Below, piece after piece: positions 59,828 to 62,256 of a stretch of 64,000 bases of DNA. Origin of the DNA: Holophagaceae bacterium (lineage in GTDB: Bacteria > Acidobacteriota > Holophagae > Holophagales > Holophagaceae). Under the pieces are notes generated by a model. It saw only the letters and a list, made by a program, of their open reading frames with translations. It did no database searches and had not been told where the DNA came from. Numbering within the stretch: the first letter of the stretch is position 1; the number at the start of each line of letters is the position of its first letter. The translations under genes were made by a program, and so were the position numbers. The stretch lies in contig JAJTBS010000001.1 of NCBI GenBank assembly GCA_021286765.1, positions 186,001-250,000 on the forward strand, read 5' to 3'.

Positions 59828-61537
59828 TCAACCCAGGCGCAGCGCCCGGAGGCGCCGCCAGAGGAGGGTCCCGCCCCCCGCCAGGGCAGCCAAGGCCAGT
59901 GCGGGGACGATGCCCGGAGGCAGCAGCGGCTGCAGGAGGGCGGCCATGGGGAGGGCCACCATGGCCCCCAGGGCCGCCTCCAGGCAGAGCCGCGTGGCCT
60001 CCTCCACGCCTTCGGTGGCATCGCCGGAGGCGTGAATGGCCCGGGTGGCGAGGCTGCGGGCGATGCGGCGCACCTGGCCCAGGAGGCCCGCCGACAGGCG
60101 CAGGATGAGGCCAAGGATGCCGGTCCAGACCAGCAGCGCCGCGAGGCGGTGGGGCAGGCCCCGGGCCTGGAGGGCCGGGATGGCGGTGCGCTGGATGAGG
60201 GCGCCCAGGGCGGCCAGCAGGGTGATGGTCAGGCCGTCGAGGAGGAGGAGGACGAAGGGACGGCGGAGGTGGCTCCAATCCGCCTTCCGCAGGGGCATGG
60301 CCCGCAGATGGCCCATGGCCACCCGGTGATGGGTGAGGAAATGGCGCAGGGGCCGGGGCAGCCGCTGCTCGATGTGGTCCGCCAGGCTCTCCGAGTGGCG
60401 GATGAACAGAGGGGTGGTGAGGGTGGTCCAGGCGCAGGTGGCCACCAGCACCGGGAAGAGGGCGGGGCCCACCGCCCCAAGCTGCTGGCCCAGGGCGGCG
60501 ATGATGAAGCTGAACTCCCCGATCTGTGCGAGGCTGGCTCCAGTGCGCAGCGAGAGGCGGAGGCTATTGCCGCCCAGCAGACCGCCCAGGGAGGCCGAGG
60601 CGAACTTGCCCACCAGCACCAAAAGGCCGAAAGCCAGCAGCGCCTTCCAGTTGGGAGGCAGCTGGGCGGGGTCGATCAACATGCCGATGGACACGAAGAA
60701 GACGGCCACGAACATGTCCCGAACGGGCTGGAGGAGGTGCTCCACCTTCCGTTCCCGACCGGATTCCGCGACCACCATCCCGGCCAGGAAGGCCCCCAGC
60801 GCCACGGAGTAGCCCGCCTTGGCCGCCAGCAGGGAGAAGGTGAAGCAGAGCCCCACGGCGGTGACCAGCAGGGTCTCATCATTGCCCTGGTCGGCCACCC
60901 AGCGCACGAAACGGGGCAGAAACCAGCGGCCGAGGACCAGCACCACGGCCAGGAAGCCCGCGAGGCGCGCCAGGGTCAGCAGCAGGGCGGGCAGGCTCAG
61001 CCCGGAGCCTGATGCCACGGCTGTGAGGAGGGTGAGCATGATGATGGCGAGCAGGTCCTCCACGATGAGGGCGGAGAGCACCAGCTCCGCCAGAGGGCCC
61101 TTGATGCCCAGGTTCGCGAAGACCCGGGCGATGATCATGGTGGAGCTGATGGCGAGGGCGCTGCCGGCGAAGATGCTCTCGATGGCGCCCCACCCGAGGA
61201 GGCGGCCCATCAGGTAGCCGGCCCAGGTCATGAAGCTCGCCTGGATGATGGCCACCAGGGCGGCGGAGGGGCCCGCCCGCAGGAGCTTCCTCAGGCTGAA
61301 TTCAAGGCCGATGGAGAACATCAGGAGGATGACCCCCAGCTCGGACAGCGTGTGGACGTTGCCCTGGTCGGCCACCAGCGGCACCGGCACGTGGGGACCG
61401 ATGATGAGGCCCGCCAGCAGGTACCCCACCACGACCGGCAGCCGCAGCCGCTGGCACGCCACGGTGGTGACCGCAGCCACGCCCAGGACCAAGGCGAGGT
61501 CCACCAGGATCGAGGGGGATGCGGGACTGGCGGTCAC
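59828..61537 (-). CDS. Kef/CPA2-type cation:proton antiporter
   Basis: A 569-residue membrane protein of the CPA2 group (Kef, RosB). LPVVVGYLLAGLIIGPHVPV opens the antiporter core; ELGVILLMFSIGLEFSLRKL, SSTMIIARVFANLG and ALIVEDLLAIIMLTLL follow, and ASLAQIGEFSFIIAALGQQL is diagnostic. The core has about twelve helices and the C-terminus has about four more in place of a TrkA-N regulatory domain. It probably exchanges K+ or Na+ for H+. The GTG at 61537 has GGAGG upstream; longer frames would run through an intergenic region. Confidence 0.9.
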   Translation of the reverse strand: MTASPASPSILVDLALVLGVAAVTTVACQRLRLPVVVGYLLAGLIIGPHVPVPLVADQGNVHTLSELGVILLMFSIGLEFSLRKLLRAGPSAALVAIIQASFMTWAGYLMGRLLGWGAIESIFAGSALAISSTMIIARVFANLGIKGPLAELVLSALIVEDLLAIIMLTLLTAVASGSGLSLPALLLTLARLAGFLAVVLVLGRWFLPRFVRWVADQGNDETLLVTAVGLCFTFSLLAAKAGYSVALGAFLAGMVVAESGRERKVEHLLQPVRDMFVAVFFVSIGMLIDPAQLPPNWKALLAFGLLVLVGKFASASLGGLLGGNSLRLSLRTGASLAQIGEFSFIIAALGQQLGAVGPALFPVLVATCAWTTLTTPLFIRHSESLADHIEQRLPRPLRHFLTHHRVAMGHLRAMPLRKADWSHLRRPFVLLLLDGLTITLLAALGALIQRTAIPALQARGLPHRLAALLVWTGILGLILRLSAGLLGQVRRIARSLATRAIHASGDATEGVEEATRLCLEAALGAMVALPMAALLQPLLPPGIVPALALAALAGGGTLLWRRLRALRLG

Positions 61538-61689
61538 GGGCCGGAACCTCCGGGGATGGCCGCGGGGCCATCCTCCAGCTTGCCATGGGCCATTCGGGGG
61601 CGCTGGTCTCAATCGAGATGGAGTCTCTAAAAATGCAGTCCCTGCTTGGCGATTCCTTTCTTTCGTGGGCGGGAAAAAGCCCTTCCGTC

Positions 61690-61738
61690 CCCCGTTATCT
61701 GAATTATGATCATCGCCGTCCACCCCGTTATCTGAATT
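61690..61738. repeat. Perfect 16-base direct repeats upstream of the AOR operon
   Basis: CCCCGTTATCTGAATT occurs at 61690-61705 and 61723-61738, identical, with starts 33 bases apart (about three helical turns). They lie 42 to 90 bases before the ferredoxin start, in an A/T-richer stretch of the intergenic region, and TATGAT follows the first. This is the form of a binding site for a regulator that contacts two same-face sites. Confidence 0.7.
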
Positions 61739-61779
61739 CCGAACAACGCCCCGGTCACCCATCCCCAGGAGGTTCCACC

Positions 61780-62256
61780 ATGCAGAAGTCCCTCCACATC
61801 GATCCCAACAAGTGCACGGGCTGTCTGCAGTGCGAAATGGCCTGCTCCTGGGAGAACTACCGGAGCTTCACCACCGCGAAGTCGCGCATCAAAGTGTTCA
61901 GCTTCCACGAGGCGGGCCGCTTCGTGCCCTACACCTGCACCCAGTGCGACGAGGCCTGGTGCATGATCGCCTGCCCGGTGGACGCCATCCGGCTCGATCC
62001 CGCCACCGGCGCGAAGATCGTGCTGGAGCCCACCTGCGTCGGCTGCAAGGTGTGCACCATCGCCTGCCCCTTCGGCACCATCAACTACGTGGCCCAGACG
62101 GGCAAGGTGCAGAAGTGCGACCTCTGCGACGGCGCGCCAGCCTGCGCCAAGGCCTGCCCCACGGCGGCCATCACCTATGTGGACTCCGATTGGACGGGCC
62201 TCGACAAGATGCGCCAGTGGGCGGGCAAGACCGACACCAACCAAGCGACGGCGTGA
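61780..62256 (+). CDS. Four-cluster ferredoxin-like electron-transfer subunit of AOR
   Basis: A 158-residue ferredoxin-type protein with four Cys-rich groups: CTGCLQCEMAC, CTQCDEAWCMIACP, CVGCKVCTIACP and CDLCDGAPACAKACP, which should bind up to four 4Fe-4S clusters. It has no signal peptide, so it is cytoplasmic. The ATG at 61780 follows AGGAGG. It lies 12 bases before the oxidoreductase gene and most likely accepts electrons from it. Similar ferredoxins go with AOR in anaerobes. Confidence 0.93.
   Translation: MQKSLHIDPNKCTGCLQCEMACSWENYRSFTTAKSRIKVFSFHEAGRFVPYTCTQCDEAWCMIACPVDAIRLDPATGAKIVLEPTCVGCKVCTIACPFGTINYVAQTGKVQKCDLCDGAPACAKACPTAAITYVDSDWTGLDKMRQWAGKTDTNQATA

Follow-up and report, generated by a model that had tools for sequence, protein, structure and literature searches.

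A conserved promoter element before the aldehyde:ferredoxin oxidoreductase operon of Geothrix, and a probable partial duplicate of it in one genome

Two identical 16-base direct repeats stand before the ferredoxin-type gene that opens an aldehyde:ferredoxin oxidoreductase (aor) operon in the 64-kb stretch of DNA analysed here (the window). The reading that we favour, with some reservation, is that the upstream repeat (copy 1) is part of the aor promoter and contains the box of a dedicated regulator, and that the downstream one (copy 2) is a recent partial tandem duplicate that has since decayed. The single conserved element to which copy 1 belongs is a genuine promoter, specific to aor and of an ordinary kind; as a pair, the repeats are probably no conserved site for a regulator.

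The repeat pair and the conserved block

The repeats (CCCCGTTATCTGAATT, on the + strand) are flanked by an oppositely oriented Na/H antiporter gene on one side and by a 4Fe-4S ferredoxin gene on the other; the ferredoxin ATG at 61780 follows the end of copy 2 after 41 bases. Their coordinates (Table 1), the 33 bp between their starts and their identity at 16/16 positions confirm the pair as the first-pass annotation had described it. No longer exact repeat at a distance of up to 100 bp exists anywhere in the window, and simulated windows matched in dinucleotide content hold 0.017 such 16-mers on average. No third copy was found in the 3.15-Mb genome (8 contigs) with the 15-mer core at up to 2 mismatches. 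The host is a species of the soil bacterium Geothrix (Acidobacteriota), the best-matching named genomes being those of Geothrix.

Table 1. Features in and around the aor promoter (window coordinates; signed positions are relative to the predicted transcription start)
Feature	Coordinates	Strand	Basis or remark
Distal conserved element GAGATGGAGTCTC, imperfect palindrome GAGAC-N3-GTCTC	61615..61627	.	90 nt upstream of TATGATC
AAAAAG A-tract, -43 to -38	61674..61679	+	Column information 1.2-2.0 bits in 27 promoters; fixed distance from TATGATC
Repeat copy 1, CCCCGTTATCTGAATT	61690..61705	+	Includes the conserved box CGTTATCYG (61693-61701); same place in relatives
Conserved promoter block CGTTATCTGAATTATGATCATCGC, -24 to -1	61693..61716	+	Single per genome, only before ferredoxin-aor, 28/47 Geothrix genomes
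TATGAT, predicted -10 hexamer	61705..61710	+	Invariant in 27/27 promoters; position predicted from consensus
Repeat copy 2, CCCCGTTATCTGAATT, at about +7 to +22 in the predicted transcript	61723..61738	+	Absent from the 46 other Geothrix genomes, and from the aligned leaders
Putative decayed continuation of the duplicate, CCGAACAACGCC vs ATGATCATCGCC	61739..61750	+	8/12 identical at offset 33
AGGAGG ribosome-binding site	61767..61772	+	Sequence; conserved in alignment
aorA-like small subunit, 4Fe-4S ferredoxin-type protein, 158 aa	61780..62256	+	Pfam Fer4 families
aorB-like aldehyde:ferredoxin oxidoreductase large subunit, 616 aa	62269..64000	+	Pfam AFOR_N, AFOR_C

Forty-seven Geothrix genomes were searched, and the ferredoxin 5' regions of 27 of them were aligned without gaps, anchored on TATGATC. 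A gapless block is common to all 27 promoters, composed of AAAAAG at -43 to -38, 13 unconserved bases (-37 to -25) and CGTTATCCGATYTATGATCATCGC at -24 to -1, in which TATGATC never varies; conservation of the block is strong, and copy 1 forms its left half. When the block was searched as a 22-mer with up to 3 mismatches (two matches at contig ends being verified by reading the ferredoxin start), it matched only aor loci in the 47 genomes, that is, no regulon beyond aor was found, and stray matches to the form AAAAAG-N13-CGTTATC were no more numerous than those to a reversed control. Nor did the other genera of Holophagaceae, as far as their upstream sequence was complete, contain the block. 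Being retained across Geothrix before aor, and absent elsewhere in those genomes, the element fits a dedicated control site. The control site proposed earlier before aor is supported for copy 1, as part of this aor-only element, and is not supported for the pair, of which the relatives have a single copy. At a more distant Holophagaceae locus, two copies of TATGATC lie 49 and 115 nt upstream of the ferredoxin ATG, and the GTTATCC box is missing.

Promoter type and the predicted regulator box

Within the block, TATGAT is the best candidate for a -10 box, as it is invariant and only one base away from TATAAT. Such a TANNNT hexamer, conserved at a fixed place in 27 promoters, is what a sigma-70-type promoter would have, and, with a start about 7 nt after the -10 box as the consensus has it, transcription is expected to begin near 61717. 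The A-tract near -40 is UP-element-like, its position being that of the proximal UP element of sigma-70 promoters. Unlike a sigma-70 promoter, however, the aor promoter has no -35 hexamer (nothing like TTGACA was found 16-18 nt upstream, and columns -37 to -25 are unconserved in the 27 promoters) and its conserved block extends to -1; a sigma-70 consensus promoter scan and a terminator scan gave no match. Activator-dependent promoters often lack a -35 box, so its absence is compatible with the sigma-70 class, in the sense of a promoter that works like its members and not of a firm membership. Copy 1 would be part of the operon's own sigma-70-type promoter, with TATGAT as the -10 box, no consensus -35 box and an A-tract at -43.

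A conserved non-core box between the -35 and -10 positions also recalls sigma-70 promoters with an operator overlapping the spacer. In the aor promoter, the conserved box CGTTATCCGAT at -24 to -14 is probably bound by a dedicated regulator that would control only the ferredoxin-aor operon, and the GTTATCC box is probably the site of that regulator. An operator of the MerR type, with a dyad in a spacer of 19-20 bp, is not apparent: there is no -35 box, and inspection of the alignment gave no dyad in CGTTATCCGATY. In two relatives (loci L119 of G016 and L020 of G026), the CGTTATCCG box is turned into its exact reverse complement, CGGATAACG, some 65 nt upstream of the ferredoxin ATG, in the same place but shifted by one base, and TATGATC is unchanged. 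Such an inversion beside an unchanged hexamer fits a separate protein-binding box next to the -10 hexamer, and it is hard to reconcile with CGTTATCCG being the -10 element of a sigma factor, and easier with a regulator box.

Farther upstream, the distal palindrome is a possible second regulator site. In most Geothrix aor promoters (L004-L029), about 107-119 nt separate it from TATGATC, vs 90 nt in the window; of 26 Geothrix upstream regions, 22 have a palindrome score of 8-10 of 10 (a score of 9 is reached by 9/3000 random regions), and GAGAYNGAGWCTC has a single match in the window's genome. The palindrome is missing in a group with an upstream gene that ends close by. Two genomes from another genus of the family (L031, L032) have a GATAC-N3-GTCTC form 27 nt before CATACT. 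Separately, in L026-L029, a conserved TGCCACTGCATTTGCA lies on the downstream side of the distal palindrome, at a distance of about 40-60 nt; it looks like a sigma-54 promoter but lacks the GG at -24.

Origin of copy 2 and alternative readings

The pair is present in 1 of the 47 Geothrix genomes, the window's own, so that a direct-repeat operator with both copies and their spacing is not a feature of the genus. The closest aor (L004/G018, with a 96% identical enzyme) has one element only, without copy 2. TATGATC and the ATG are 75 nt apart in the window vs 45-63 nt (mostly 49-52) elsewhere, the leader of the window exceeding the usual length by about 24 bases, and copy 2 follows shortly after the predicted start. 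Past the 16-mer, self-comparison at offset 33 still matches at 8/12 positions (binomial P ~0.004), ending after CGCC, and the counterpart of TATGAT on the side of copy 2 is TCCGAA, that is, a destroyed -10 box. The restriction of copy 2 to one lineage, the longer leader, the similarity beyond the 16-mer and the destroyed -10 box together make a partial duplicate the best explanation of the pair. Copy 2 would have arisen from a partial tandem duplication of the promoter, of about 28-33 bp, into the leader and within the window's lineage; the -10 half of the duplicated promoter would have decayed since then, and the 33-bp spacing would follow from the duplicated length instead of being an evolved operator geometry.

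The first-pass annotation had read the pair as the site of a dimer or oligomer binding on one face through the two repeats, a reading not supported by relatives with one copy only, nor by a copy 2 that is placed downstream of the predicted -10 box in a lengthened leader and looks like a decayed duplicate. The absence of both repeats upstream of aor in relatives, named there as what would speak against it, is true for copy 2 in the 46 other Geothrix genomes and untrue for copy 1. As for the aldehyde, tungsten or redox signal that had been suggested, none is indicated by the evidence.

Could the duplicated box nonetheless be functional? If the pair worked as a two-site operator, the regulator that binds box 1 would occupy box 2 as well, a short way past the start, leading to cooperative repression or to a roadblock. 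Box 1 is conserved, 33 bp is close to three helical turns and would place both boxes on the same face, and both 16-mers are perfect although the adjoining part of the duplicate has decayed: the first 16 bases of the duplicate are unchanged and 4/12 of the next ones are changed (P 0.024 if changes are random, a post hoc value). The spared 16 bases are the only sign, and a weak one, that the second box may be kept for function. Nevertheless, that P value is only 0.024 and post hoc, and a pair present in 1/47 Geothrix genomes makes such an operator unlikely. At the other extreme, the second 16-mer could be a meaningless coincidence, by chance or from the assembly, as its presence in one genome only would allow; against the expected 0.017 per window, a similarity that does not stop at the 16-mer and a leader lengthened by roughly what one would expect, this is hardly credible. 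Taken alone, the 16 bases of copy 2 may have a chance or templated origin.

Other alternatives concern the block itself. An ECF-type sigma factor might recognise GAAAAA as -35 and CGTTAT as -10, which would make the 16-mer a -10 region and give a second one in copy 2. The spacing between the conserved G(A)AAAAG and CGTTATC is fixed, and GGAA...CGTT resembles ECF consensus sequences of other bacteria; however, the start-to-start spacing of 19-20 is slightly short of the usual 21-23, TATGAT is the most conserved hexamer, and it is the CGTTATCC box that is inverted in G016 and G026 while TATGATC is invariant, and we give an ECF promoter a low probability. Even further down in probability, and highly improbable in our view, is that the conserved TATGATCATCGC is not a -10 box but belongs to a leader peptide (ATG ATC ATC GCC...) or to an RNA element of the leader. 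Whereas, in the window, a short frame does start with ATGATCATCGC and run to the TGA in copy 2, its distance to the ferredoxin ATG varies among relatives and the frame is not kept, the substitutions are non-synonymous (AAC, GTG), no ribosome-binding site lies upstream, and no Rfam family is matched at gathering score.

The aor operon and its context

The genes after the repeats encode, in this order, a ferredoxin-type small subunit, the AOR large subunit (its gene continuing past the window to ~64119 in the genome), an FAD/NAD subunit and a ThiS/MoaD-like protein. With consecutive genes for the ferredoxin-type, W-binding large and FAD/NAD subunits, this is a three-subunit AOR operon of the A. 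aromaticum type. In Aromatoleum aromaticum EbN1, the tungsten AOR operon (AorABCDE) has its genes in the same order, with ferredoxin-type AorA, AorB and FAD/NAD AorC and, after them, a ThiS/MoaD-like gene (PMC6365974). Unlike this shared gene order, the promoter element of the window was not found before the fetched betaproteobacterial aor genes (at least 7 mismatches). No mention of a regulator or promoter is made in the text on the A. aromaticum aor operon (PMC6365974), no literature on Geothrix aor was found, and the literature examined gave no description of a regulator of three-subunit tungsten aldehyde oxidoreductases, nor a usable one of TunR/ModE-type control. A candidate Moco/Wco riboswitch controls genes for molybdenum and tungsten cofactor metabolism (PMC2408646); in 61300-62000, a region that includes the leader, its Rfam covariance model has no gathering-level match. 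The sub-threshold Rfam matches, only eukaryotic or archaeal, were taken as chance.

Among the neighbours tested (MFS transporter, PilZ, phosphoesterase, TMP synthase/shikimate kinase, SecD/F-like, polysaccharide deacetylase, Na/H antiporter and S9 peptidase, the SecD/F-like one assigned by sequence), no gene for a DNA-binding regulator adjoining aor was recognised; some neighbours had no family match. The long open frame of the antiporter (59828-61762, - strand) is open back to 61762, across the aor promoter. In the relative L033 the antiporter protein begins at MTATPSTPSILVDLA, and the true start of the window's antiporter is thus probably near 61540.

A bolder proposal goes beyond what we favour: AAAAAG-N13-CGTTATCCGATYTATGATCATCGC would be the target of a new one-operon aor regulator of Geothrix with an inversion-tolerant box, and the duplicated box of this strain would have been retained as an extra operator with an effect on the response. 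We hold this combination to be distinctly unlikely, and the repeat pair alone is no evidence for a new kind of control. The conserved, aor-exclusive block is nonetheless a precise bait for finding the regulator of the tungsten aldehyde oxidoreductase, and the duplicated box in this strain offers a natural experiment on operator gain.
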